Virus record (IMG/VR): IMGVR_UViG_3300030333_006922
Location: 1-21,999 of that record
DNA length: 21,999 nucleotides
Reading direction: 5' to 3' (one strand)
From: a virus
Part shown: piece by piece, positions 6,471-21,952 of the stretch
Position numbering within the stretch: position 1 is the stretch's first letter
How the letters are laid out: each line of letters opens with the position of its first letter
The notes under the pieces: model-generated
Seen by the model: only the letters and a program-made list of their open reading frames with translations
What the model was told of the DNA's origin: nothing
The model's database searches: none
Translations under genes and position numbers: made by a program

Positions 6471-6545
6471 TCCCTCGTAGTTCAGTGGTAGAACGGTAGA
6501 CTGTTAATCTGCTTGTCGTTGGTTCGAATCCAGCCGAGGGAGCCA
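6471..6545 (+). tRNA. tRNA-Asn (anticodon GTT)
   Basis: Acceptor TCCCTCG pairs with CGAGGGA, then G and an encoded CCA (6543-6545). The D arm is GTTC/GAAC. The anticodon stem GTAGA/TCTGC surrounds loop CTGTTAA, so the anticodon is GTT. The T arm is GTTGG-TTCGAAT-CCAGC. Asn codons (AAT, AAC) are common in this AT-rich genome. Confidence 0.95.
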
Positions 6546-7723: not shown

Positions 7724-7798
7724 GCCCTCATAGTTTAATGGATAAAACAAAAGACTTCTAATCTTTCGATCTAGGTTCGATTCCTGGTGAGGGTACCA
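7724..7798 (+). tRNA. tRNA-Arg (anticodon TCT)
   Basis: Acceptor GCCCTCA pairs with TGAGGGT (first pair G-U), then A and an encoded CCA (7796-7798). The D arm is GTTT/AAAC. The anticodon stem AAAGA/TCTTT surrounds loop CTTCTAA, anticodon TCT, reading AGA. AGA is the main Arg codon in the AT-rich genes here, which explains carrying this tRNA. The T arm is CTAGG-TTCGATT-CCTGG. Confidence 0.95.
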
Positions 7799-8497: not shown

Positions 8498-9460
8498 ATG
8501 AAAAAAGGTGACGTTGACATTCCACAACATAAGCCTGGTAACATGGCTGAAAACTCCATGGGAGGAACAGAACTTCTAACCATGGAGTTATTCAAAAGAC
8601 TTCCTGAAGAGTACAAAGAAAAATTTCAGTTCGTCATATCAAGAAAATATGAACTTGAAGATAAACCTAGATTGTATTGGATTCACGATTTAGCATTGGA
8701 TCCTGCTCATAGTTTTTTAACAGAACCAGCAGAATTATCTAAATTTAAAAAGTTGATTTTTGTTAGTCATTGGCAACAACAACAATTTGATACTTTGTTA
8801 AAAATTCCTTACTCTATGGGAACTGTAATAAAAAATGCTATTGACCCTATACCCAAACATCAAAAAACAAAAAGTGATAAATTACAATTGATGTATTGTT
8901 CTACTCCTCAAAGAGGATTAGATGTTTTATTAACTGCATTAGATATGATTGATAGAGATGATTTTCATCTTCATGTTTTTTCTAGTTTTAAAATATATGG
9001 TTGGGAACAAAACGATGAACCTTTTAAAAAATTATTTGAAAAATGTGAATCCGATTCAAGAATTACTTATTATAGTTCTATTCCATATGACGAATTGAGA
9101 CAACATTGGACAAATATGCACATATTGGCATATCCATCAACGTGGCAAGAAACATCATGTCGAGTAGCAATGGAAGCAATGACGGCTCATTGTGCAATTG
9201 TTACTTCTAATTGGGGTGCTTTGCCAGAAACATGTGGTGAATATGCTTACATGTATACCTATGATGAAAATAAATTAAAACATGCAGAAAAATTTGCTGA
9301 TCAATTAGAAGATGTCATGGATTCATATTGGACTGATGATGTACAAAAAAATCTTGACAACGCCCAAGAATATTCGTATACTCATTACAGTTGGTCAAAA
9401 CGCATAGAGCAATGGACCGGTTTTCTTGACAACCTCATATATGAGATTGATAATGGCTAA
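8498..9460 (+). CDS. GT4-like (GT-B fold) glycosyltransferase
   Basis: 320 residues. The N-terminal part has NSMGGTELLTMELFKRLP, the glycine-rich loop typical of GT4 enzymes (MGGTE), then FVSHWQQ. The C-terminal part has CSTPQRGLDVLL, YYSSIPYDEL and the E218-x7-E226 motif (ETSCRVAME) that binds the sugar nucleotide. It is shorter than cellular GT4 proteins (usually 350-400), with a reduced N-terminal domain. GGAG precedes the ATG. Phage GT4 enzymes glycosylate DNA bases or virion/host glycans; the acceptor is not evident. It overlaps the next gene by 8 bases. Confidence 0.85.
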   Translation: MKKGDVDIPQHKPGNMAENSMGGTELLTMELFKRLPEEYKEKFQFVISRKYELEDKPRLYWIHDLALDPAHSFLTEPAELSKFKKLIFVSHWQQQQFDTLLKIPYSMGTVIKNAIDPIPKHQKTKSDKLQLMYCSTPQRGLDVLLTALDMIDRDDFHLHVFSSFKIYGWEQNDEPFKKLFEKCESDSRITYYSSIPYDELRQHWTNMHILAYPSTWQETSCRVAMEAMTAHCAIVTSNWGALPETCGEYAYMYTYDENKLKHAEKFADQLEDVMDSYWTDDVQKNLDNAQEYSYTHYSWSKRIEQWTGFLDNLIYEIDNG

Positions 9461-11676: not shown

Positions 11677-12150
11677 ATGGCTAAAATGACTTTTGAATAT
11701 TTTCAAGAATTAGAAAAATTAAAAGATAAAAATGAAATTATAAATTTTTTAAAAACGGCAAGCATTACGATAAAAGAAGTTATTAATATAAATTTTAATG
11801 AAAATGTTGTATTAGCCTTACCTCCAGGTACTCCTGATATTGAACGTAAAGAGCATCTTCATGATGGTGCCACATTAAATCATGAAATAAAAAAAATGTA
11901 TCTTTTTGTTGAAAGCATGTCACCAAATGTAACTAAACTCAAAAGAGAATCTTTATGGTTACAATTATTAGATATATTGCATCCAGACGAAGCAGACGAT
12001 TTGGTTCAAATGAAAGATAAAGTATTACATAAGAAATATAAAAATTTATCACAAGAAAATTGTCATTTAGCATTTCCTGAGTTTGTTGCAAAACCTAAAG
12101 GTCCCGAGAGAGATAGTAAAGGAAGATTTATTAAAAAGGAAAATAAATGA
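11677..12150 (+). CDS. DUF6433-like T4-type phage protein
   Basis: 157 residues. The core reads ALPPGTPDIE..., then YLFVESMSPNVTKLKRESLWLQLLDILHPDEADDLVQMKDK, and the end is PKGPERDSKGRFIKK. This layout (A-L-P-x-G-T-P, KRE-S-x-x-x-Q-L-L-(x)n-P-x-(D/E)-A, KDK) is one I associate with DUF6433 proteins of cyanophage-like T4 relatives, whose function is not known. It lies downstream of rnh with a strong AGGGGA site. It overlaps the nucleotidyltransferase start by 4 bases. Confidence 0.7.
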   Translation: MAKMTFEYFQELEKLKDKNEIINFLKTASITIKEVININFNENVVLALPPGTPDIERKEHLHDGATLNHEIKKMYLFVESMSPNVTKLKRESLWLQLLDILHPDEADDLVQMKDKVLHKKYKNLSQENCHLAFPEFVAKPKGPERDSKGRFIKKENK

Positions 12151-12809
12151 AAGTTTTGATGACATGTGCGGGTTTAAATAATGAGTTAAGACCAATAACA
12201 GATAGAATTAATAAATGTTTAATAGAAATAAATGGAAAAACAATACTTAGATCTAATTTAGATTGGTTACAAAAATATGACATAGATGAAGTTGTAATTA
12301 GTACAAAATATAATCATAATCAAATAGAAAGAGAATTAAAAAATTACATATCAAAATTTTCTATTAATTTGCATCATTTAAAAGAAATGACTGATACTAT
12401 GCATATTTTAAAAAATTTAAGTTATAAATTTGAAAATGATTTTATTTTTATGCATGGTGATAACTTATACAATTTTGATTTGGATGATTTTTTAAAATTT
12501 CATAAAAATTCAAAAAAAGATTTAACTATTCTTGCACATGAAACTCAAAAAGATTATAAAAATAAATCAATTATTAAATTGAATTCTGATGAAACAAAAA
12601 TTGAAAAAATAATTCCTAGAAGTCAAGGTAAATTTGTAAATAAAGTTTTAGCAACATCTGGTTTTCTTGTTGCTAAAAAAATAAATTATGATATAATCCA
12701 TAAAAACGATAAAAAAGTATTTGATCATTTTTTACCAAAAAATGTAGATAATATTAATTTTTTTAAATCTAATTCTGTAAAATTTTTCAACAATATTGAA
12801 AGTTTATGA
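12147..12809 (+). CDS. reduced NDP-sugar nucleotidyltransferase-like protein
   Basis: 220 residues with the GT-A-type NTP_transferase fold: MKVLMTCAGLNNELRPITDR, K23 in INKCLIEINGK, and the metal-binding HGD (G104-D105). In active enzymes the first loop reads AAGxGTRLxP; here GTR is replaced by N-N-E, so the phosphate-binding Arg is missing. It is also shorter than usual (240-300). The gene is far more AT-rich than its neighbours, suggesting separate origin. It may be an inactive relative, or an enzyme with altered chemistry supplying one of the glycosyltransferases. Confidence 0.75.
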   Translation: MKVLMTCAGLNNELRPITDRINKCLIEINGKTILRSNLDWLQKYDIDEVVISTKYNHNQIERELKNYISKFSINLHHLKEMTDTMHILKNLSYKFENDFIFMHGDNLYNFDLDDFLKFHKNSKKDLTILAHETQKDYKNKSIIKLNSDETKIEKIIPRSQGKFVNKVLATSGFLVAKKINYDIIHKNDKKVFDHFLPKNVDNINFFKSNSVKFFNNIESL

Positions 12810-13372
12810 ATGTCTTTTACTTAGATAAAAATCCTAAGTTGGCGGCAGAATTTCATTGCGATAAGCATGTAGTTAAAATGCTTATCGAATATGCACAACT
12901 TATGAGTACGGCTCATCGTGTTATGGACGGTGAAGAATGGTATGATAGAACCGCAAATAATAGAAGAATTAAAAGATGGAAACATCCTGATTCCGAGATG
13001 GATAAGATATTGTATCTTGCTTCTCATGTAAATCATCCAAGTGGTATTTGGCTTAGAAAAAGTACAAAACACTATGATTGGTTATATGAAATGTGGCTTC
13101 ATCTTCATGATGAATTTGTTTCAAGATACAATAAAAAACATTTGTCAAATACTAAACTTACAGAAATACTTTGTAAATATCCTGACAATATGCCAACTCT
13201 TCCTTGGGAAGATCCACCACCAGCAATGCCAGATCATTGTAAAATACATAATGATTCATTGGCCTCATATCGCAAATATTACATAACTGAAAAAGTTAGA
13301 TTTGCGACTTGGAAAACAGAAACACCTATTTGGTTTAAGGAAAAAAATGCCGACTTATGTTTTCAAATGTGA
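12806..13372 (+). CDS. conserved phage protein with HCDKHVVKM motif
   Basis: 188 residues. It starts MNVFYLDKNPKLAAEFHCDKHVVKMLIEYAQLM. The H17-C-D-K-H21 cluster and a later HPSGIWLRKS, then WEDPPPAMPDHCK, and YRKYYITEKVRFATWK are strongly conserved in a family seen in T4-like marine phages and some bacteria. His, Cys and Asp close together suggest metal or catalysis. No proven activity is known to me; relation to DNA-repair glycosylases is possible but unsupported by visible motifs. It overlaps its neighbours on both sides. Confidence 0.78.
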   Translation: MNVFYLDKNPKLAAEFHCDKHVVKMLIEYAQLMSTAHRVMDGEEWYDRTANNRRIKRWKHPDSEMDKILYLASHVNHPSGIWLRKSTKHYDWLYEMWLHLHDEFVSRYNKKHLSNTKLTEILCKYPDNMPTLPWEDPPPAMPDHCKIHNDSLASYRKYYITEKVRFATWKTETPIWFKEKNADLCFQM

Positions 13373-13595
13373 AAAATGTGAAAATGTTTTTGAAGAAAGT
13401 TTAAAATATGAAGATAGAGATTCGCCTACAGAACATCTGTGTCAAAAATGTGATGGAAATGTAATTAGAATTCCTGCGATGCCTCTTTTTGCTTATGATA
13501 ATGTTGGTAGTAAAAAACCAGATAATGCGTTCAATGATAAATTGAAAGAAATAAAGAGGACACATTATGGAAGTACCATCAACCCAATCGAATAA
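13347..13595 (+). CDS. FmdB-type zinc-ribbon protein (copy 2)
   Basis: 82 residues starting MPTYVFKCEKC. C8-x2-C11 and C32-x2-C35 make the zinc ribbon, and IRIPAMPLFAYDNVGSKK follows. AAGGA lies 4-5 bases before the ATG; an upstream in-frame ATG (13302) would lie inside the previous gene and lose the family start. It has the same family start as the 823-1041 protein but a different tail, so it is a paralog or separate acquisition. It overlaps the exonuclease gene by 29 bases. Confidence 0.84.
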   Translation: MPTYVFKCEKCENVFEESLKYEDRDSPTEHLCQKCDGNVIRIPAMPLFAYDNVGSKKPDNAFNDKLKEIKRTHYGSTINPIE

Positions 13596-14238
13596 TTTTA
13601 TTCATGAAAATATTTTAGGTGACATTGAACTTGATACTATAACAGAAAATGGTAAAAGGTGTTATGTCACGCCTACAGGTGAAAAATATCCATCAGTTAC
13701 TACAATTCTTTCCGATTATAAGAAAGACTCTATTATAGAGTGGAGAAAAAGAGTTGGCGAAAAAGAAGCCAACAAGATTTCTACTCAAGCATCTCGCCGA
13801 GGTACAAAAGTTCATAAATTATGTGAGGATTATCTCAATAATGAACTTTCCACAAAAGAATATACTCCTGACAATATAGAAATGTTTAGATCAATTCAAA
13901 GTATTCTTGATGACATTGAATTGGTTTATGCACAAGAAAGAACTTTATTTTCTCATCATTTGAAAACTGCTGGTAGAGTTGATTGTGTTGGTAAATTTCG
14001 TGGTAAGAGACATATTATTGATTTTAAGACTTCAAGTAAGCCTAAGAAAAAAGAATGGATTGACAATTATTTTATGCAAGGATCGGCGTATTCTGTAATG
14101 TGGGAAGAGATGACAAATATTCCTATTGCTTATATTGCAATTATAATTGCAGTTGCAGATGATCATCCACAAGTTTTTATAGAACATAGAGATAATTGGA
14201 TTAACAAATTCATAGAAATAAGAGGTAAATATGTCTGA
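13567..14238 (+). CDS. PD-(D/E)XK exonuclease (RecB/MGME1-like)
   Basis: 223 residues. All nuclease motifs are in order: RRGTKVHKLCEDYL (H83, E87), AGRVDC (D139), IIDFKTSSKPKKK (D152-x-K154) and YFMQGSAYSVMWEE (Q171, Y175). This is the Cas4/RecB-like fold of MGME1-type exonucleases, which digest single-stranded DNA ends and are common in T4-like marine phages. YPSVTTIL near residue 41 is also typical. GAGGA lies 7 bases before the ATG, inside the FmdB gene. The motifs are intact, so it should be active in replication or recombination. Confidence 0.9.
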   Translation: MEVPSTQSNNFIHENILGDIELDTITENGKRCYVTPTGEKYPSVTTILSDYKKDSIIEWRKRVGEKEANKISTQASRRGTKVHKLCEDYLNNELSTKEYTPDNIEMFRSIQSILDDIELVYAQERTLFSHHLKTAGRVDCVGKFRGKRHIIDFKTSSKPKKKEWIDNYFMQGSAYSVMWEEMTNIPIAYIAIIIAVADDHPQVFIEHRDNWINKFIEIRGKYV

Positions 14239-15025
14239 TGAAATTAAAATTTATCCAAACGACATTCAAAATTTAGAATATTCAAAAACACCGGAAGGTA
14301 AAGATTGGTTAAAAAGACTAAACAATAATAAAAAATATTGTCTTGAAGTCAACAAAAATACAAGGAGCGGATATTATTACCACTATTGCGTAGAAAATAT
14401 ACCAGGTAGTTCTGAGTATAAAAAACCATATCTGAAATACGATAATATTAATTATGATTATCTGAAATTTTTAGATTTAAAAATTTATCAAGGATGCTTT
14501 GACGAAGAATCATATAAACATGTTTTAAAAAACTTTTTAGTCAATAGGAAATGCTATGAAATATTTTACTCAAAAAGTTTAACAAAGTACAAAAGATTAC
14601 ATGTTACTTGTTGTCAACATGCTATAAAAGAATATAAAATGTTAAATGATTTTATAAATTTACATTTAGATGAAATACCTGATGGTACAATTTGTGCTGA
14701 TTATAATTATTTGAATGTGGCTTTAAAAATAAAAGATAAAACAGATTTTGAAAATTTCATAAAAAATGATTCTAAAAATAGTAAAAAATTTCCAGTAATA
14801 GAATATAGAGTTTCTTCTTCAGATGACGTAGGTGATGGTGCATGGAATTTTAATAATTTAATATACTATAAACATTTTATAAATGATTCTTCTATATTTT
14901 TTGATGAAGATCATCATAAAGACGACCGAAAAGGTACAGGTTTTTTTCTAAAAAGAAGCACTGGTCGACCAGTGCATGGAACTAAAAGTTTACCTTTTGG
15001 TGTAATTTATGATGGTTTAGTATGA
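14231..15025 (+). CDS. orphan 264-residue protein, unknown
   Basis: Very rich in Lys, Asn, Tyr and Asp. There is a YYHYCVEN and a VTCCQHAIKEY Cys-His segment around residues 50 and 126. The C-terminal part holds FFDEDHHKDDRKGTGFF, a dense His/Asp run that could bind metal. The end contains a perfect 18-bp palindrome in the DNA (14958-14975). No family is recognised. It is coupled to the exonuclease by an 8-base overlap yet much more AT-rich, which marks the left edge of the accessory cluster. Confidence 0.65.
   Translation: MSDEIKIYPNDIQNLEYSKTPEGKDWLKRLNNNKKYCLEVNKNTRSGYYYHYCVENIPGSSEYKKPYLKYDNINYDYLKFLDLKIYQGCFDEESYKHVLKNFLVNRKCYEIFYSKSLTKYKRLHVTCCQHAIKEYKMLNDFINLHLDEIPDGTICADYNYLNVALKIKDKTDFENFIKNDSKNSKKFPVIEYRVSSSDDVGDGAWNFNNLIYYKHFINDSSIFFDEDHHKDDRKGTGFFLKRSTGRPVHGTKSLPFGVIYDGLV
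14958..14975. repeat. perfect 18-bp palindrome inside a gene
   Basis: GCACTGGTCGACCAGTGC equals its own reverse complement, with no spacer. It is GC-rich in a very AT-rich gene, near that gene's 3' end and about 80 bases before the nitroreductase start. It could be a protein-binding site for control of the downstream cluster, or chance. Confidence 0.5.
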
Positions 15026-15054
15026 TATGATTTAATACATTTCTCAAGGAATTT

Positions 15055-15693
15055 ATGCAAGAAAACTTAAATTTGCACATAATAAAATCATCAGAATTAG
15101 CAGGAAAATGTCAAAGAAATTGGATCGATGAGCCAATTGATGAATTTGATTTGAGAACGATAGTAAATTCTGCAATGAATATGCCCACAAAACAAAATGT
15201 GAAAATGTATGAATTGGTAGTCGTACAAGATAAAAAAGCTAGAGAGTTTTTATATGATAGTTCAGGCGTTCCTGAACTTAATGATTTTACACGATGGAGG
15301 AATGGCCAAATGTTGGCTCCTACTATTTTAATGTGGTTTATATCTACTAACATTCCCGAATTTCATGAAGCCGAAGATTTTGATATTTCTACACAACATC
15401 GAGATTCAATTAATTTAAATACAGGAATATCAATGGGGGCCGCCGCATTGACTGCGACTCAATTAGGGTATAATGTAGGATTTAATTGTTGCGGTGATAA
15501 TGAGTCATATGGCCAATTAGGCAGGACAGTGAATAATGGTTTTAATGATTATTCTTTTATATGTGCCCTTGGAATAGGAAAACCGATGAAAGAGTTTTCT
15601 AGAAATATTGTTCCTAAAAATAAAAATTTAAATATTGATTTAACGGTGGCTACTGAAGAACATAAAAAAGAAAAAACAATTTATTATATATGA
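15055..15693 (+). CDS. nitroreductase-like flavoprotein
   Basis: 212 residues with the FMN nitroreductase layout: an N-terminal KCQRNWIDEPIDEFDLRTIVNSAMNMPTKQN region, NGQMLAPTILMWF in the middle, SMGAAALTATQLGYNVGFNCC, and the ending ICALGIGKPMKEFSRN (the LGIGxP strand-turn). Members use FMN and NAD(P)H to reduce nitro groups, quinones or enones, or to dehydrate or dehydrogenate peptides in natural-product pathways. AAGGA precedes the ATG. It overlaps the carbamoyltransferase by 4 bases, which points to a shared pathway rather than a stand-alone detoxifier (inference). Confidence 0.8.
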   Translation: MQENLNLHIIKSSELAGKCQRNWIDEPIDEFDLRTIVNSAMNMPTKQNVKMYELVVVQDKKAREFLYDSSGVPELNDFTRWRNGQMLAPTILMWFISTNIPEFHEAEDFDISTQHRDSINLNTGISMGAAALTATQLGYNVGFNCCGDNESYGQLGRTVNNGFNDYSFICALGIGKPMKEFSRNIVPKNKNLNIDLTVATEEHKKEKTIYYI

Positions 15694-17042
15694 TTAAATG
15701 GGGAACTACTTTTGGTTCTCATGATGGTGCATTAGCGGTTTTTCAAGATGATGAACTTGTATTTGCATCAGATGCAGAACGATGGTCGAGAAAGAAAAAC
15801 GATCCTACAATACCTGACAACCTAATTAGATTTGCAGAAGATAATTGGGGCATACCTGATCAGGTTCATTTTTACGAAGATTATACTCTTAAAACACAAC
15901 GTAGAGAGTTTGCTGGTCAAAGTCCTCTGAAACCTATACAGTTCAAATACAATACAATTAGTCATAATCATCATTGGTCTCATGCTCGTTATGGTTATTG
16001 GACATCTCCGTTTGATGAGTGTACAGTTCTTGTTGTTGATGCAATAGGTGAATGGGACACATTGACACAATGGAAAGTCAAGAACGATTTTGAATGTGTG
16101 AAGAGATGGAGATATCCAAAGTCAATAGGTCTATTCTATTCTGCAATGACACAAGCGGCTGGTTGGAAACCTAATGAAGAAGAATATATTCTCATGGGTG
16201 CTTCAGCAGTTAAAAAACACAAAATTGAAAATTACAATATTGTCAAAGAGTTGTGGGATAATGGTGCAAATTTTCATACAGGAATAAATATAAATTTTGA
16301 TAAGTTTGAGATTGCATCAATAGCACAAGAAATTTACGAAGAAGAGTTTAAGAAAATTATCGATGAGATAGAAGATGATAATCTTGTGTTTGTAGGTGGT
16401 TGTGCATTAAATGTCTCTGCAAATCGATTTCTCACAAAGTTCAATACATTTATACCATGCAATCCAGGTGATGGTGGATCTGCAATAGGTTGTGTGATTG
16501 ACAGAAAGATACCTGCAAATGCATATCTAGGTTATGAAATACCTGGCGAATATCCTGTAACAGAGATCATAAAAGAGTTAAAAGAACGAGGTATTGTAGG
16601 TGTTGCTAAAGGAAGAGCAGAATTTGGTCCAAGAGCATTAGGTAATAGATCATTATTAGCAGATCCATCTATTTTCAATATGAAACATCGTGTTAATTTA
16701 GTTAAAGGCCGTGAAGAATTTAGACCATTTGCACCTATGATTTTAAAAGAAGATGCTGATTTATTTTTTGAAGAGGGTATTTCATCACCTTTTATGAATA
16801 CAATTAGAAAAGCAAAACTTATAACATTGAAAAAATATCCAAGCATAGTTCATCTTGACGGCACTTCAAGATTACAAGAGGTAACAGAAGAACCACACAG
16901 AACATTATTGAAAGAATGGAAAAAAGAAACAGGATGTCCGATGCTATTGAATACATCACTCAATGTAAAAGGTGAACCTATTGTTAATACAGAAGAAGAT
17001 GTTAAAAATTTTGAGAGAAAAACAGGTGTAAGAGTCTTTTGA
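15690..17042 (+). CDS. NodU/CmcH-type carbamoyltransferase
   Basis: 450 residues. The N-terminal TsaD/Kae1-like domain starts with GTTFGSHDGALAVF (ASKHA phosphate loop) and carries the metal site H92-x-HH-W-SH98. A second ASKHA-type loop is FVGGCALNVSAN. The C-terminal carbamoyl-binding domain holds KGRAEFGPRALGNRSLLADP, then KGREEFRPFAP and LNTSLNVKGEPIV. The family makes carbamoyl-AMP from carbamoyl phosphate and ATP and transfers the carbamoyl to a hydroxyl of a sugar, antibiotic or, for some viral members, 5-hydroxymethylcytosine. It is shorter than most relatives (550-600). Codon use is less AT-biased than its neighbours. Confidence 0.92.
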   Translation: MIKWGTTFGSHDGALAVFQDDELVFASDAERWSRKKNDPTIPDNLIRFAEDNWGIPDQVHFYEDYTLKTQRREFAGQSPLKPIQFKYNTISHNHHWSHARYGYWTSPFDECTVLVVDAIGEWDTLTQWKVKNDFECVKRWRYPKSIGLFYSAMTQAAGWKPNEEEYILMGASAVKKHKIENYNIVKELWDNGANFHTGININFDKFEIASIAQEIYEEEFKKIIDEIEDDNLVFVGGCALNVSANRFLTKFNTFIPCNPGDGGSAIGCVIDRKIPANAYLGYEIPGEYPVTEIIKELKERGIVGVAKGRAEFGPRALGNRSLLADPSIFNMKHRVNLVKGREEFRPFAPMILKEDADLFFEEGISSPFMNTIRKAKLITLKKYPSIVHLDGTSRLQEVTEEPHRTLLKEWKKETGCPMLLNTSLNVKGEPIVNTEEDVKNFERKTGVRVF

Positions 17043-17043
17043 C

Positions 17044-17529
17044 ATGAAAATGAAAACTCGTTTTTTAAACGATTCAGATACTAAATTTGTGAGTGATTTT
17101 TGTGATGCATGTAAACAATTAGGATACTATAATAATTCTTCTTTAGAAAACATGAAATGGTATTGGAAAGATGTTAAATGGGTTGGAACATTTAAAGATG
17201 GAAAGATTATATCACTTAGCGGTATACATCCGTTTTTAGAAATGGGTGAAAATGCGTTTAGAATTATGTTTAGAGGAGCATCATTACCTGGATATAGTTC
17301 AACATTTCTGAATTTCGAACAAGTACCATTAAAAATACAATATGCTCTTTTATTATGTGAGAAACCTACTTTTTATGTCACATTTAATACATCAAAAAAT
17401 ACAGGAGCGAAAAGTTATAGAATGTCTAAAGCAATAAGTAGAAGAAATGATTTTTCTTTTGTAAAACATATGAATTACTTCAATACCATGCAAGAAATTT
17501 GGAAATATGAAAATAACAATATTCACTAG
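17044..17529 (+). CDS. probable GNAT-like acyltransferase fold protein
   Basis: 161 residues. WVGTFKDGKIISLSGIHPFLEMGENAFRIMFRGA has the strand-turn-strand rhythm of GNAT beta2-beta4, and FYVTFNTSKNTGAKSYRMSKAI resembles the late strand and helix of that fold. The acetyl-CoA pyrophosphate loop (R/Q-x-x-G-x-G/A) is not obvious, so activity is uncertain. It starts one base after the carbamoyltransferase stop (ATG at 17044; a second at 17050). Its last 23 bases overlap the ANL gene. If it is an acyltransferase, the adenylating enzyme next door might supply its acyl group (inference). Confidence 0.5.
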   Translation: MKMKTRFLNDSDTKFVSDFCDACKQLGYYNNSSLENMKWYWKDVKWVGTFKDGKIISLSGIHPFLEMGENAFRIMFRGASLPGYSSTFLNFEQVPLKIQYALLLCEKPTFYVTFNTSKNTGAKSYRMSKAISRRNDFSFVKHMNYFNTMQEIWKYENNNIH

Positions 17530-18118
17530 TGGAAGCACAGGTGAACAAAAAGCAGTAACACATAATGAAACCGATTTTTATAAACCTGCACAGTTTTTAT
17601 GTAACAAATGGAAATTAGATTCAAATGATATTATTTTAAATCCTTTCCCCACATGGACAATAGCACATTGGGCTTTCTGTTTTTTTCCTGCACAATTATC
17701 AAATTGTGAAGTTATCAACATTAATTTTGAACCTAAAAAATTTTGGAAACAAGTCGATGAAATAAGACCTACAGTTCTTACATTAGCAGTTAGAACAATG
17801 AACACGATGTTAAAATTGGAAACTCCAAATTTAACATTTATGAAAAATTTATGTACAGGTTCTGCACCTGTTACAGAACATCATCTAAGCATGATGAAAA
17901 AAACGGGGGCACAAAATTTATGGAATATTTACGGTTCTTCAGAATGTATACCTCCCGTAATGATGACTCAAGGAGTGTGTTTTGATTTTAAAGATACACC
18001 TTATTATTTGGAATACGATCAATCTCTTATTGTTGATGGCTTTGATACTGAAGATATTTTTATAGATAACCAATGTTTAAGCAGACCAAACTTAAATGAA
18101 ACATGGAAATCTAAATGA
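17507..18118 (+). CDS. miniature ANL (acyl-adenylating) enzyme
   Basis: 203 residues, against 500-650 for normal family members. It opens directly on the P-loop, TSGSTGEQKAVTH (residues 7-19, motif A3). It then has FPTWTIAHW (A4 region), CTGSAP (117-121), NIYGSSE (140-146, A5) and DTEDIF (180-185, A7-like Asp that holds the ribose). It lacks the whole first subdomain and the mobile C-terminal domain with the catalytic Lys (A10). ATP binding and adenylation of a carboxylate are plausible; thioester formation is not. The GNAT stop is 23 bases into the gene and radical SAM follows with ATGA, so the small size is real, not a broken frame. Confidence 0.85.
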   Translation: MKITIFTSGSTGEQKAVTHNETDFYKPAQFLCNKWKLDSNDIILNPFPTWTIAHWAFCFFPAQLSNCEVININFEPKKFWKQVDEIRPTVLTLAVRTMNTMLKLETPNLTFMKNLCTGSAPVTEHHLSMMKKTGAQNLWNIYGSSECIPPVMMTQGVCFDFKDTPYYLEYDQSLIVDGFDTEDIFIDNQCLSRPNLNETWKSK

Positions 18119-19161
18119 ATTTCTTGTGTAAACATCCTTTTATATACGTATCTATCACACCTGATGGTCATTATCAACTATGTCCTCATTCAAAAAAATT
18201 GAATCCAATTCATAATACAAAAAATACTTCATTACATGATTTTTTCTATAGTGAATATTCAAATAGTATAAGAGAGGATATGTTGGATGGTGTTATGAGT
18301 GATGATATTAAAGATATGTGTAGTGAATGCATAAATTTAGAGAAAAATAATTTACCATCACATAGAAGAATGTTATCTGATTTTAAAAAACCAGAAGTGG
18401 AAATTATTCATTTAAATAATATTGGTACTAAATGTAATTTAAAATGCATTAATTGTGGACCTGAAAGGTCATCTACATTCGGGCCTTTGATTGATAATTG
18501 GAACGAATTTGATTTAAGTCAAATTAAGAACATTAAAGAAATATGGGCTATAGGCGGAGAAGCCTTATTGATGAAAAGAACCAAAGACATTGTTGAACAA
18601 TCGAGTAATGATTCAACAGTATATATTGTTACTAATTCAACAACATTCCCTAAATGGATTTTAGATTATAAAGAAAAAATAACCATTGTCATGTCTATTG
18701 ACGGAATCGGAAAGGTCGATGAATATATACGAACAGGAACCATTTTTTCGAAAAAGATGAAAAATATGGATAAATTTGTTGAAAATTTTAATCATAGATT
18801 TGTTTTTACTTTGAATATGATTAACTATAGGTATATGAATGAAGTAATAGATTTTTTAAAAGACAGATATGATTATGATCTAAATGTGATAAACAGATTG
18901 CAAAACCCCCCTTTTTTAGATTGTGTTAATGTACCTGGTAATCATATAGGTCAACCGAATCATGATATTTTTTTGAAGGGTATTAGATTTTTAAAATTTT
19001 ATGATATTGAAAACGGTAAAAATTTACTTGATATATGTCCTGAATGGCAAACATTTTATGAAAAAGAAAATCCTCAACCTCACAATTTTTCCATGGCAAA
19101 CTTAACAATGGATATTCCACCATTAACCATTTATGATAGAAATGAATTAATAAATGTCTAA
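18115..19161 (+). CDS. radical SAM protein with N-terminal twitch/SPASM cluster (1)
   Basis: 348 residues. The core motif is C107-x3-C111-x2-C114 (CNLKCINC), holding the [4Fe-4S]-SAM cluster, with the GGEAL SAM-binding motif at 147-151 and a later MSIDG strand. Before the core, C5-x17-C23 and C69-x2-C72 supply a possible auxiliary cluster (LCKHPF...PDGHYQLCPH, CSEC), the reverse order to usual SPASM proteins. Such twitch-type radical SAM proteins occur in marine phages; substrates are unknown. It starts in the ATGA overlap with the ANL enzyme and ends in an overlap with the oxygenase. Confidence 0.88.
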   Translation: MNFLCKHPFIYVSITPDGHYQLCPHSKKLNPIHNTKNTSLHDFFYSEYSNSIREDMLDGVMSDDIKDMCSECINLEKNNLPSHRRMLSDFKKPEVEIIHLNNIGTKCNLKCINCGPERSSTFGPLIDNWNEFDLSQIKNIKEIWAIGGEALLMKRTKDIVEQSSNDSTVYIVTNSTTFPKWILDYKEKITIVMSIDGIGKVDEYIRTGTIFSKKMKNMDKFVENFNHRFVFTLNMINYRYMNEVIDFLKDRYDYDLNVINRLQNPPFLDCVNVPGNHIGQPNHDIFLKGIRFLKFYDIENGKNLLDICPEWQTFYEKENPQPHNFSMANLTMDIPPLTIYDRNELINV

Positions 19162-19717
19162 AATTTTTGATAATGGTTATTATATTTTTGACATACCAGA
19201 AAAATGGTCATTTGATGGTGAAAATGTAAATGAATATGAAGATTTATTATTTAATGATAATTGGTATTGGAAATGTAAGATACAGAAAAATGTAAAAAAT
19301 AAATCAATTTTGAATATTTTTAATAAATATGAGCCAATTATCGCAGATATTATACGGAAAGATTATGGCATAGATTTTACAATATCTACTGAATTATCTT
19401 TGACCTCTATCATATATTATGATGAAAAAAAATCATCACATGACATACATAAAGATTATGGTATTTTTACTATGCTTTTGAACGATGATAGTCCCAATTG
19501 TTTATTTTATCTTGATGAAACTTGGAAACTTATGAATATAAATAAGAATAGTATTGTTATATTTGCAGGTGAAGAGTTGGAAAAAATATGTGATGTATCT
19601 GCAATAGAGCATAAGGTAGAAAAATCAGAAAACTTTTGTAGATTTTCTGCTACCAGAATAGTTTGGCCTGTAAATAAAAAAGATGAATTGGCTAATAAAA
19701 AATTAACTTGGATTTAA
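19154..19717 (+). CDS. 2OG-Fe(II) oxygenase, IPNS-type motif
   Basis: 187 residues. H99-x-D101 in HKDYGIFTMLL matches the HxDyGxLTLL of isopenicillin N synthase-type dioxygenases. H153 (AIEHKV) completes the iron triad, and R163-x-S165 (RFS) is the 2-oxoglutarate carboxylate site. The protein is shorter than plant and fungal relatives (280-350), keeping mainly the jelly roll. It likely hydroxylates or desaturates a substrate using oxygen and 2OG. It lies between two radical SAM genes with an 8-base overlap upstream. Confidence 0.82.
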   Translation: MSKIFDNGYYIFDIPEKWSFDGENVNEYEDLLFNDNWYWKCKIQKNVKNKSILNIFNKYEPIIADIIRKDYGIDFTISTELSLTSIIYYDEKKSSHDIHKDYGIFTMLLNDDSPNCLFYLDETWKLMNINKNSIVIFAGEELEKICDVSAIEHKVEKSENFCRFSATRIVWPVNKKDELANKKLTWI

Positions 19718-19718
19718 T

Positions 19719-20513
19719 ATGTCAAATATAGAAACAAATCCCTATGATAAAGTTGCACGAGAGATATTAGACACTGGTTGGTTTGAAGATAGTAAATCAG
19801 ATTATAATTCGATGTTTTTCAAACACGTAACTCATAGTGGAGAATTACATGTTCTTGACATAGGTTCACACTTGGGTCTTTGGGCTTTGAGAATTTTAGA
19901 ATATTCTAAAAATAATAATATCAGTACAAAAATGTTATGCGTAGATCCCTGCATAGATTCAACAGATTCTTTTGAATCTAATACTAGTGAATATTCTTCT
20001 CTAATAGAACATTTTGAGTTGGCGATAACCGATGAAACTGAAAATACTCTTTATATCAAACACCTTGAACAAAACAGTTTAGGTTCAATTCAGATTTCTC
20101 CTATGATTCGAAATACTATAGTTGATGAAATGGCGGTGTCAGGTCCTCCAGGTCCAGATTTGTATCCTAATGAAATAGTTTTAGGTGTTGCTCAGACTGT
20201 GACCGCTCAAAAAATAATAACAGAATATTCTCAAAACATTTCACCATCTTCTTTGAATGCGGTAGTGTGTTATGCCTGTGGTTATGAATATCAGATTTTA
20301 AAATCTTTACAATTTTTGTTTAACTCTAGTCAGCCTATTGCATATATCTTTCAGTTATATGACAACACATTGCAACAATGTGGTTCTTCCTTGAGTGAGG
20401 TATTAAGTTATATGGAATCTCACGGATTTAATTATGAAAAAACAAATTTGCATTATGCAATTTCCCATAACAACAATCATTTGGATCATACTTATTATAC
20501 CTTTTATAAATGA
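19719..20513 (+). CDS. FkbM-like SAM-dependent methyltransferase
   Basis: 264 residues. VLDIGSHLGLWAL (45-57) is SAM motif I and CVDP (74-77) ends the second strand. The overall spacing is that of FkbM O-methyltransferases, which often act on sugars or peptides. The family's late DxEGxE motif is changed to C-Y-A-C-G-Y-E (184-190), keeping only the GxE part. A GPPGPDLYP loop near 142-150 is unusual. It begins one base after the oxygenase stop. It probably methylates the cluster's product, or is altered in substrate or catalysis. Confidence 0.75.
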   Translation: MSNIETNPYDKVAREILDTGWFEDSKSDYNSMFFKHVTHSGELHVLDIGSHLGLWALRILEYSKNNNISTKMLCVDPCIDSTDSFESNTSEYSSLIEHFELAITDETENTLYIKHLEQNSLGSIQISPMIRNTIVDEMAVSGPPGPDLYPNEIVLGVAQTVTAQKIITEYSQNISPSSLNAVVCYACGYEYQILKSLQFLFNSSQPIAYIFQLYDNTLQQCGSSLSEVLSYMESHGFNYEKTNLHYAISHNNNHLDHTYYTFYK

Positions 20514-20524
20514 CTTAAATTAAT

Positions 20525-21952
20525 GTGATTATTGATAAAGACCCTGATAATTTACCTTCATCTACTTTTTGTGCATTGCCTTGGATGCACATCTCTACAA
20601 GACCGAATGGACATATGCGTGTATGTTGTACTGCAAATGCATCTGCCGTTCAAGACAAAGATTCAACAAACAAAACAGTTTCAGAAGCAGGTGTGCTTAG
20701 AAGAGATGACGGCAAACCTGCTAATCTAGCAACAACAAGTTTGCTTGATGCTTGGAACAACGAGTACATGAAGTCGGTTCGCAGAATGATGTTAAAGGGT
20801 GAAAAACCTGATTCATGTCTTAAATGCTTTAAGGAAGAAGATGCAGGTCATAGAAGCAAAAGACAATGGGAAACGGCTAAGTGGGTACATGAACTTGGTC
20901 TGGAAGACATTATTGGTGAGACTCAAGAAGATGGATCCATTCCGCCTAGAGTCAGATATATTGATTTGCGCCTGGGTAGTAAGTGCCAGTTGGCATGTGT
21001 TATGTGTAGTCCTCATGACTCTTCTTCTTGGGTGAAAGAATACAAACAAATTTATCCTGAATTAAAGAATAGCAGATTAAGAGATTCGCAAGAATGGGAA
21101 AAAGACTCTGGTAAGTTAGCATGGTCTGGTGGTTCATATGCTTGGCATAAATCAAATCCTACATTTTGGGATGAGTTTTGGACACAAGTACCTACACTTA
21201 GACAATTGTATTGGGCAGGTGGTGAAGCACTTATAATGAAAGAACATTACATGGTGCTTGAAAAAATCATTGAGATGGGTTATGCAAAGAATATAGAAGT
21301 TCGTTACAACTCAAATGGTCTTGAATGGGATGACCATCTTTTTGACTTGTGGAAAGAGTTTAGAAATGTTATATTTCATTTTAGTATAGACTCATATGAA
21401 GACAAGAATCATTTTATTCGATATCCATCAAATTGGGAACAAGTTATAACTCAATTAGAAACTCTTGACAATTATCCGCATGGAAATCTTAGACTCACTA
21501 CTGCAACAACAATACTTGCTCTTAATATATTTTATTTACCTGACTTCATAAAATGGAAGTTAGAACGTGACTGGAAATTACTGAACAAATTTCCTGCTGG
21601 TGCTGGTATGATAGATTTACATCTCGCATACTGGCCACCTCAATTGAATTGTAAGGTATTGCCTAAGTGGTTTAAACAAGAGGTGACAGAAAAATTTGAA
21701 GACTTCTATCCATGGCTTGAAGAAAACTGGAGAAAGTGTAACGGTGTTTCAGACATAAACTTTGAGCAATGGCGTGAATTGCCGTATGGTATAAAAAGAC
21801 TAGAAGGTCTTGTATCTTTTATGAATTCAGAAGATTGGTCTGAGCGTTTACCCGAAACTGCTGAATGGTGTGGCACGATAGCAAAAAGACGAAAGTTAGA
21901 TTTTCTAAAAATATTTCCTGATTTAGAATGGTTGGAGTGGTATGCAAATTGA
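20525..21952 (+). CDS. radical SAM protein with N-terminal twitch/SPASM cluster (2), GTG start
   Basis: 475 residues. C154-x3-C158-x2-C161 (CQLACVMC) is the radical SAM site, and WAGGEAL follows. The N-terminal C16-x17-C34 and C98-x2-C101 repeat the exact first spacing seen in the 18115 protein (FCALPWMH, PNGHMRVCC, CLKC), so the two are paralogs. GTG at 20525 is needed to keep the FCALPW region; an ATG two bases earlier is followed at once by TGA. Codon use is less AT-biased than the 18115 paralog. The C-terminal third is Trp-rich and unmatched. It overlaps the next gene by 11 bases. Confidence 0.87.
   Translation: MIIDKDPDNLPSSTFCALPWMHISTRPNGHMRVCCTANASAVQDKDSTNKTVSEAGVLRRDDGKPANLATTSLLDAWNNEYMKSVRRMMLKGEKPDSCLKCFKEEDAGHRSKRQWETAKWVHELGLEDIIGETQEDGSIPPRVRYIDLRLGSKCQLACVMCSPHDSSSWVKEYKQIYPELKNSRLRDSQEWEKDSGKLAWSGGSYAWHKSNPTFWDEFWTQVPTLRQLYWAGGEALIMKEHYMVLEKIIEMGYAKNIEVRYNSNGLEWDDHLFDLWKEFRNVIFHFSIDSYEDKNHFIRYPSNWEQVITQLETLDNYPHGNLRLTTATTILALNIFYLPDFIKWKLERDWKLLNKFPAGAGMIDLHLAYWPPQLNCKVLPKWFKQEVTEKFEDFYPWLEENWRKCNGVSDINFEQWRELPYGIKRLEGLVSFMNSEDWSERLPETAEWCGTIAKRRKLDFLKIFPDLEWLEWYAN

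Follow-up and report, generated by a model that had tools for sequence, protein, structure and literature searches.

A radical-SAM-rich gene island of T4-like phages with an exchangeable left part, a conserved core and a possible role in glycan synthesis

Nine closely packed genes (A–I) of the window (the whole stretch of DNA analysed, the first 22 kb of the 46,536-base, or 46.5 kb, IMG/VR contig G000) belong to a larger island, in which genes A–H are the variable left part and gene I anchors a conserved core. The same-strand run of genes passes position 21952 and reaches the end of the record; the island covers 32 kb or more, with about 36 genes within 14.2–46.4 kb of the contig. We assign a probability of roughly 0.5 to the reading that the island encodes a phage pathway for making, tailoring and transferring an unusual glycan during infection, with interchangeable decorations.

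Extent of the island and its variable left part

The original prediction, made from the letters of the window alone, described nine genes for coupled tailoring enzymes of natural-product or glycan classes, joined in one phage-borne pathway. The coordinates, all on the + strand, and the spacings were confirmed (gaps of 29 bases for A-B, 1 for C-D, 1 for G-H and 11 for H-I; overlaps of 4 for B-C, 23 for D-E, 4 for E-F and 8 for F-G) and the coupling is indeed tight, but the unit is larger than nine genes. A is not the start of the run, as it overlaps the preceding exonuclease gene by 8 bases. Moreover, across 40 IMG/VR relatives, A–H are replaced or rearranged while I stays with a different, conserved set downstream, so that the nine-gene operon was rejected as a functional unit. 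Recurrence of the order A–I, proposed as a check in the original prediction, was seen in no relative; A has no relatives found by the viral scan or among the loci compared, and none of G were found among those loci. On the scale of the larger island, gene order does recur, with T located within three genes of I in 16 of the 18 T4-like contigs.

Table 1 Features of the window, with the best supporting match or context
Feature	Coordinates	Strand	Assignment	Support
	8498..9460	+	Glycosyltransferase gene, upstream of the island	phrog_2170 1.6e-35
	12147..12809	+	Sugar-nucleotidyltransferase-like gene	PF00483 NTP_transferase 1.7e-10
	13567..14238	+	PD-(D/E)XK-type exonuclease, conserved left island border	phrog_298 2.6e-73
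A	14231..15025	+	Orphan protein, 264 aa	No family match at a meaningful score
B	15055..15693	+	Nitroreductase-like flavoprotein	PF00881 6.1e-5, just over cut-off
C	15690..17042	+	NodU/TobZ-type carbamoyltransferase, 450 aa	Both Carbam_trans domains, N (PF02543 4.5e-26) and C (PF16861 5.2e-49); phrog_1601 1e-84
D	17044..17529	+	Conserved 161-aa partner of E	Upstream neighbour of E in relatives
E	17507..18118	+	Truncated ANL (AMP-binding) protein, 203 aa	PF00501 1.9e-19
F	18115..19161	+	N-twitch radical SAM, accessory	NF033640 1.2e-40, 139.9 bits, below cut-off
G	19154..19717	+	Probable 2OG-Fe(II) oxygenase	PF03171 0.005, below cut-off
H	19719..20513	+	Probable FkbM-like methyltransferase	PF05050 0.006, TIGR01444 0.008, both below cut-off
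I	20525..21952	+	N-twitch radical SAM, first core gene	NF033640 405.7 bits (cut-off 170)

The content between the exonuclease and I is swapped between related phages at this one site, and the exonuclease directly precedes the variable segment in L019, L045, L048, L050, L140 and G005. It is unlikely that the contig is a chimera of phage and bacterial sequence, given that the junction recurs in independent contigs. The gene for gp23 was detected in the relatives G005, G007, G009–G012 and G015, not in the G000 fragment itself. Upstream of the border, a homologue of the glycosyltransferase gene occupies the same place in G005 and L140, and the upstream sugar genes of the window and of G005 include those for a glycosyltransferase and a nucleotidyltransferase and, by reading, for GmhA-, HddA- and cytidylyltransferase-like proteins.

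Tests of the nine proteins against Pfam, NCBIfam and PHROG profiles, with PDB profiles for C, D and I, bore out most of the predicted enzyme classes (Table 1): C is firm, B marginal, F and I are twitch radical-SAM proteins, although F scores below the cut-off, and A is an orphan as proposed. For G and H the predicted classes are probable, the matches being weak, with scores below the cut-off. The proposed GNAT identity of D was not confirmed, with no GNAT or other match in Pfam, NCBIfam, PHROGs or PDB profiles. E, predicted to be a mini-ANL protein, is indeed truncated, matching only positions 168–330 of 384 of the profile, with the C-terminal ANL part that includes the lysine subdomain missing; its TSGSTG motif aligns with a peptide synthetase. 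The nearest solved chains to C are 7xb6 (9.5e-43), novobiocin carbamoyltransferase, GdmN and TobZ. F contains a CNLKCINC motif at residue 107.

Some of these genes recur within the variable part, notably C and the D-E pair: D is directly upstream of E, overlapping or abutting it, in L144, L145, L152, L153 and L134, and the C family is present in 39 viral loci (dN/dS 0.11–0.16). The B family was labelled in 9 of the 18 T4-like contigs, within three genes of I in 7, and has a match in phage Mosig (8e-19). Copies of F, about 40% identical, are present in G005 and L053, and the one clear relative of H lies inside the island of L015. When A, E, F and H were used in single-sequence pattern scans, no close viral relative appeared; this method is insensitive, because E and F have relatives of 40–67% identity reached by other routes. 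Genes C, D, E, F and I are under purifying selection (dN/dS against relatives 0.05–0.54, mostly below 0.29; A, B, G and H gave no usable pair).

The CX3CX2C motif is present in all 18 radical-SAM proteins of the island (17 are counted with PF04055), a density of 18 genes per 28 kb in this contig; one relative carries 22. I, J, M, N, R, V, X, Z and f score above the curated cut-off of 170 bits for NF033640 (N-terminal twitch radical SAM), a model whose name carries no functional meaning. Recent tandem duplication was rejected as the origin of these genes, their pairwise identities being 20–46%. The island also includes split radical-SAM/SPASM gene pairs, b with a and Q with Q2 among them, for which an assembly frameshift was rejected as the cause, the split being conserved and interleaved in relatives. 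A simple hydropathy test (19-residue hydropathy above 1.4) detected a clear transmembrane helix in none of the 36 island proteins. Wzx/Wzy-type flippase and polymerase membrane proteins were found neither among these 36 ORFs nor, with one borderline case by hydropathy, among the approximately 60 ORFs of G005, and the island yielded no flippase, polymerase, ligase or exporter.

The conserved core and its bacterial counterparts

The core, most of which lies outside the window, consists of I, a PP-loop ATPase, T, U, e and i, and relatives continue it with GT250, MT191, MTA3 and GT211. Homologues of I were found in 40 viral loci of IMG/VR at 29–97% identity (dN/dS 0.05–0.09). In both phage groups the core has a small protein, h (65–74 aa), encoded next to it; h is conserved along its length and lacks a variable core region and conserved Cys residues.

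Contig G000 ends after gene i, and the adjoining glycosyltransferases are known from relatives only. In the second phage group, every one of the 22 contigs carries a gene of a GT-A family (GTA2 in 14, GT250 in 8), and 21 of the 22 carry MTA3. The order i-GT250-MT191-MTA3-GT211 is present in L014, a contig of a close relative in which I is 97% identical, and in L135, L137 and L138. The two conserved core neighbours are predicted to be GT-A glycosyltransferases. The model of GTA2 (pLDDT 90) has GT-A glycosyltransferases as its top Foldseek matches, with VIA Z of about 10–11 to GT-A/nucleotidyltransferase folds; for the model of GT250 (pLDDT 72), the 50 PDB matches listed, with a best E of 4e-8, are glycosyltransferases of GT6/GT8/GT24 and similar types. 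GTA2 does not belong to the same family as GT250/GT211, and the two occur in different lineages. Profile searches of the PDB gave no firm match for GTA2, MTA3, D or W, the last reaching 0.0055 to an aminotransferase.

The triad I-i-e also occurs as near neighbours on chromosomes of Bdellovibrionota (L056–L069), with orthologue identities of 46–55% for I, 30–42% for i and 55–62% for e. Bdellovibrio-type bacteria are predatory. In contrast to the phage island, accessory genes are scarce or absent on these chromosomes. GTA2 is within three genes of the triad in 7 of the 15 bacterial loci, and GT2-like or epimerase genes adjoin it in L062, L065 and L068; L057 additionally carries T, U, W, k_350, MTA3, GTA2 and an SGNH-like gene. 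In a quick tree of I, with an uncertain root, the phage sequences form one group among those of Bdellovibrionota, and the tree of e separates phage from bacterial sequences (support 99/98).

Possible product of the pathway

Among the products considered in the original prediction, a glycan is favoured because conserved glycosyltransferases adjoin the core, and a modified DNA base is unsupported as a general function. We infer sugar as the substrate, as well as the order of the steps and the acceptor. The product would be a sugar or short oligosaccharide bearing many modifications. The core radical-SAM proteins I, i and e, joined in the T4-like group by T and U, would perform C–H chemistry on a sugar or sugar-linked substrate, with epimerisation, dehydrogenation, deoxygenation and bond formation as candidate reactions, and nitrogen groups may be installed by W (a PLP-type enzyme), an amidinotransferase and the PP-loop ATPase. 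Attachment and capping of the product would fall to the conserved GT-A glycosyltransferases and the methyltransferase-like proteins beside the core; A–H would contribute carbamoyl, adenylate, oxygenase, methyl and flavin steps, their swapping giving each phage a different decoration. Because the island encodes no flippase, polymerase, ligase or exporter, the acceptor would be either in the cytosol, for example a tail-fibre protein of the virion, or a glycan of the host envelope built by host machinery. It seems doubtful that the full combination holds, namely, a strain-variable, radical-SAM-built glycan on the phage's own virions (tail fibres), made by a core pathway shared with Bdellovibrionota, with the auxiliary-cluster SPASM domain of some of the enzymes acting in trans from a separate protein.

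The extent of the island with its 18 radical-SAM genes, the upstream sugar genes, the purifying selection and the lack of clear transmembrane proteins are consistent with glycan synthesis, as are the bacterial triad near GTA2 and the pairing of radical-SAM genes with sugar transferases in Campylobacter phage CP220. Other observations argue against it: no radical-SAM protein of the island matches a characterised sugar-acting enzyme at the family level, the radical-SAM genes greatly outnumber the glycosyltransferases, these are placed beside the core from relatives and not from the contig and differ in family between lineages, and the upstream sugar genes may belong to another pathway. SPASM proteins often act on peptides, and the sole match of I among solved-structure profiles is SkfB, a peptide maturase. 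The main rival, unlikely in our judgment, is that the SPASM/twitch radical-SAM proteins, hydroxylases and methyltransferases modify a phage-encoded peptide or protein, either RiPP-like or directly on virion proteins and tail fibres. The twitch and SPASM domains typical of peptide maturases, the retention of h at the core, Asp/Arg hydroxylase-like proteins in related islands, core genes abutting proteins that match virion structural families in L035 and the tail-fibre genes that flank the Mosig island all fit this possibility. However, h, the only precursor candidate, lacks the features noted above, no protease or exporter was seen among the 36 island ORFs, fibre genes are absent near the Bdellovibrionota copies, and the conserved glycosyltransferases and sugar-type tailoring enzymes would be left unexplained.

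An improbable alternative is a diffusible small molecule, aminoglycoside-like or another natural product, for manipulating the host or acting against competitors. The enzyme mix does resemble antibiotic tailoring (TobZ-like carbamoyltransferase, amidinotransferase, radical SAM and B12 radical SAM, with halogenase-like, PhyH/TauD oxygenase and aminotransferase-like proteins), but no exporter, resistance gene or clear membrane protein was recognised in the island, and the fast swapping of accessory genes is a better fit to surface variation. Boosting of host metabolism or Fe-S-related auxiliary metabolism has been proposed in print for Campylobacter phages (PMC2853527) and for marine T4-like genomes (PMC5332604); it is still harder to reconcile with a coherent, ordered gene set that includes glycosyltransferases and enzymes lacking an equivalog-level match to any host metabolic pathway. 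Least probable is hypermodification of DNA bases, in which the radical-SAM and transferase enzymes would have a modified nucleotide or the phage DNA itself as their substrate. QueC-, FolE- and DpdA-like genes are present, by reading, at the right end of the island in G005 and G007, and the C-terminus of the PP-loop protein shows a weak resemblance to QueC. The QueC- and DpdA-like genes suggested deazaguanine DNA modification, a reading that was rejected, as in G003 they are absent from the same place, which contains sugar-transferase-like and fibre-like genes instead (by reading; PHROGs did not confirm the tail-fibre calls for two G003 proteins). Furthermore, the core triad is also found on Bdellovibrionota chromosomes.

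Relation to known phage modules

Radical-SAM-rich phage modules are an already known kind, represented by CP220/CPt10, a marine T4-like genome and pelagimyophage islands. The closest published module is that of the T4-like Campylobacter phages CP220/CPt10 with 11–12 radical-SAM genes, where an interchangeable cluster combines five such genes, a glycine amidinotransferase and two nucleotide-diphospho-sugar transferases (Timms 2010, PMC2853527). As in the present case, many (at least five) radical-SAM genes are clustered in a T4-like phage, with content swapped at one site. CP220 gp086 was found with the profiles of gene c (4e-40) and of the k_amidT amidinotransferase family (8e-63); nucleotide-diphospho-sugar transferases, of which CP220 has two by fold, adjoin the module in the relatives L014, L135, L137 and L138, with G000 ending before that place. 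The island described here is larger, no match to the I family was found in the CP220 region examined, the carbamoyltransferase, ANL and nitroreductase genes were not seen in CP220, and no glycosyltransferase families are shared by profile.

The host recognition cluster of pelagimyophages, such as Pelagibacter phage Mosig EXVC030M (MT647606), is located with tail fibres between VrlC and the neck gene gp14 (Zaragoza-Solas 2020, PMC7029224). The Mosig island is a similar mosaic of nitroreductase, MoaA-like radical-SAM, aminotransferase, carbamoyltransferase, methyltransferase and dioxygenase genes, with homologues of i, C, B, W and MTA3 and, weakly, of GT250 and GT211, whereas I, e and T were not found in the region examined. 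Its location differs as well: between tail-fibre genes and VrlC in Mosig, between the exonuclease and nuclease/FolE/QueC-like genes in G005 and G007; in G003, fibre-like proteins adjoin the island (by reading only). The marine T4-like TARA_ERS488813_N000010, compared by published description only, has 12 radical-SAM genes treated as Fe-S-related auxiliary metabolism, and the description examined mentions neither a core nor a gene order nor a link to sugars (Nishimura 2017, PMC5332604).

Modules of this kind have been in the literature since 2010 with no assigned function, at 11–12 radical-SAM genes per phage in the published counts found. New here are the scale, the conserved core, the links to Bdellovibrionota and glycosyltransferases, and the split radical-SAM/SPASM gene pairs. 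The core of I, i, e, two methyltransferase-like proteins and GT-A glycosyltransferases, common to several T4-type phage lineages and partly present on the chromosomes of predatory bacteria, turns a gene list into a defined pathway, one that a small number of genes suffices to test. Should a virion or envelope glycan prove to be the product, the island would represent a new way for phages to diversify their surface chemistry and a pool of unstudied radical enzymes that modify sugars.

The extent of the island and its radical-SAM enzymes

The nine predicted ORFs, A to I, lie on the + strand at 14231-21952, as originally placed, and are separated by 29, -4, 1, -23, -4, -8, 1 and 11 bases (negative values denote overlaps); the exonuclease gene upstream overlaps A by 8 bases. 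The assignments of B (nitroreductase), C (NodU/TobZ carbamoyltransferase), E (truncated ANL) and F and I (N-twitch radical SAM) stand, and those of G (2OG oxygenase) and H (FkbM methyltransferase) are plausible, with scores below the cut-off. Family searches did not confirm D as a GNAT protein and assigned no family to A. The nine genes had been taken as a unit, which they are not: the window makes up bases 1-21999 of a 46,536-base virus record, and the sequence past it shows the island continuing to the record end; gene I as a protein query yields ten matches in this record. The window also contains four tRNA genes (Trp, Cys, Asn, Arg; 410-559, 6471-6545, 7724-7798).

Island genes beyond the window, split radical-SAM pairs and fusions (record coordinates, or those of the named loci of relatives)
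Feature	Position	Strand	Remark
J	22059
K	23200
L	24113		PP-loop
M	24898
N	26273
O	27450
P	28535		TauD-type; PF02668 6e-16
Q	29368	+
Q2	29954	+
R	30178
S	31221
T	31897
U	33026
V	33988
W	35004		probable PLP enzyme, weak matches
X	35837		radical-SAM
Y	37045
Z	37980
a-b-c-d group	39307-42156	-
e	42091
f	43134
g	44314
h	45161
i	45351		contig ends after i
Q + Q2	29368-30196	+	= L009:8869-9697
b + a	40362-39307	-	= L010:3308-4363
Relatives with split genes	L140:11703-13643, L143:371-2338, L145:544-2505, L021:7884-8971
W/N-twitch fusions	L039:12728-14872, L040:13335-15773, L032:18142-19955

The island encodes eighteen radical-SAM proteins, including F and I, all of which retain CX3CX2C and which show 20-46% mutual likeness (ten N-twitch, six C-SPASM type, two MoaA-like); PF04055 is found 17 times in the 46,536-base record and 5-22 times in 16 relatives. 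Q and b are radical-SAM cores lacking SPASM, and Q2 and a are stand-alone SPASM-like proteins. The interleaved order b-Q-Q2-a in three relatives rules out a frameshift as the cause of this split, and the arrangement suggests that auxiliary-cluster domains may be supplied in trans by Q2/a-type proteins. Two phage loci (L032:13917-18155, L040:9092-13345) encode chains of 1412-1417 aa that fuse at least two radical-SAM domains with a SPASM domain. One N-twitch frame carries two in-frame TAG codons in two relatives (G007:C1:25809-26930, G008:C1:11501-12622), as a putative pseudogene or a case of recoding; its counterpart in G006 (12189-13286) has none. For most genes tested, dN/dS is 0.05-0.28 (0.54 in one D comparison), indicating purifying selection on the proteins.

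A shared core with variable accessory genes

Gene I is present in forty IMG/VR loci, and mapping of their ORFs showed no recurrence of A-H as a block. Between the exonuclease and I, the accessory genes vary from phage to phage: C recurs in many phages carrying I, the D-E pair recurs, overlapping or abutting, and a single clear relative of H lies in an island of this kind. Accessory genes of the relatives include a tryptophan-halogenase-like gene (PF04820, 7e-62), B12-binding radical-SAM proteins and PhyH oxygenases.

In the T4-like group, T (16/18 contigs) and the PP-loop gene (13/18) lie within 3 genes of I; U comes next, ahead of genes of the i, V/Z, e and f types. Among the 22 contigs of the second phage group, 17 have i at most 3 genes from I, 21 encode the methyltransferase-like MTA3 and all 22 a GT-A family. 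Large members of both groups contain gp23, so both are T4-type. W precedes X in our contig; proteins of 605-813 aa in the second group join it to an N-twitch radical-SAM domain, which suggests that W and X may work together. The small protein h (65-74 aa) is conserved beside the core in both groups (L010:9162-9359; L014, L017, L018, L028, L054, L055), and extends into a 354-aa frame in L018.

At the right-hand end, locus L014 (97% identical in I) continues from i into GT250, MT191, MTA3 and GT211. This block, comprising predicted glycosyltransferase and methyltransferase-like families, also follows i in G003, G005 and G007, and stands whole or in part beside I in L027, L031-L033, L035, L037 and L046. 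For the GT250 model (pLDDT 72), all 50 PDB matches listed are GT6/GT8-like glycosyltransferases (best E 4e-8); GTA2 (pLDDT 90), which takes the place of GT250 in other lineages, is GT-A-like. On our reading of the sequences, the island ends in nuclease, FolE-, DpdA- and QueC-like genes in G005, and in fibre-like and large GT-like proteins in G003. In two related phages (L135:11228-13718, L137:3288-5807), the FolE-, DpdA- and QueC-like genes at the right end suggest that their DNA may contain 7-deazaguanine. In L035, the core block is preceded by genes whose products match virion structural or baseplate families. L133:6395-10197, which precedes the island by a few genes, reads as pyruvyltransferase-like, glycosyltransferase, cytidylyltransferase-like, heptose-kinase-like and GmhA-like genes.

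Bacterial counterparts

A scan of genome contigs identified I orthologues in Bdellovibrionota (46-55% identity), with i (11/15 loci), e (9/15) and GTA2 (7/15) within 3 genes. Contigs bearing the I-i-e triad reach 937 kb; in one of this length, from a Bdellovibrionia MAG, a single stretch (L057:1301-18812) holds I, i, e, T, U, W, k_350, MTA3, GTA2 and an SGNH-like gene, which is most of the phage core on a bacterial chromosome. Sugar-type genes neighbour the triad in L062, L065 and L068. Phage and bacterial sequences separate in the tree of e (support 99/98); in a quick tree of I, with uncertain root, the phage sequences form one group inside the Bdellovibrionota spread. Four MAG contigs with 55-84% matches, filed as Chloroflexi, Acidimicrobiaceae, Rickettsiales and Gammaproteobacteria (L052-L055), are probably mis-binned phage sequence.

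Precedents and possible function

Campylobacter phages encode 11-12 radical-SAM proteins and possess an interchangeable cluster of an amidinotransferase and five radical-SAM genes (Timms et al. 2010, PMC2853527), in which a sequence record annotates two sugar-transferase-fold proteins. Nishimura et al. (2017, PMC5332604) described a marine T4-like genome that carries 12 radical-SAM genes. In pelagimyophages, the host recognition clusters include radical-SAM cassettes, according to Zaragoza-Solas et al. (2020, PMC7029224). C, B, W, i and MTA3 have homologues in the cultured Pelagibacter phage Mosig, and GT250 and GT211 have weak ones. Thus, in the open-access literature, the kind is already known, and this island is a variant of it.

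None of the 36 island ORFs exceeds a 19-residue hydropathy of 1.4, and no flippase, polymerase, ligase or exporter was found among them by this measure, so the product would be completed in the cytosol or passed to host machinery. Peptides are often the substrate of SPASM/twitch enzymes, the profile of I matches SkfB, and h adjoins the core; peptide modification is the main rival on these grounds, albeit an improbable one. A glycan pathway whose decorations are interchangeable is the reading we prefer, at a probability of about one half, given that the core recurrently pairs with glycosyltransferases, that the tailoring classes are of sugar type and that the Campylobacter phage CP220 shows the same pairing. 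The acceptor of such a glycan may be a virion protein, in view of the fibre genes adjoining in some relatives and the absence of membrane proteins, or an envelope glycan, in view of the heptose-type genes upstream.
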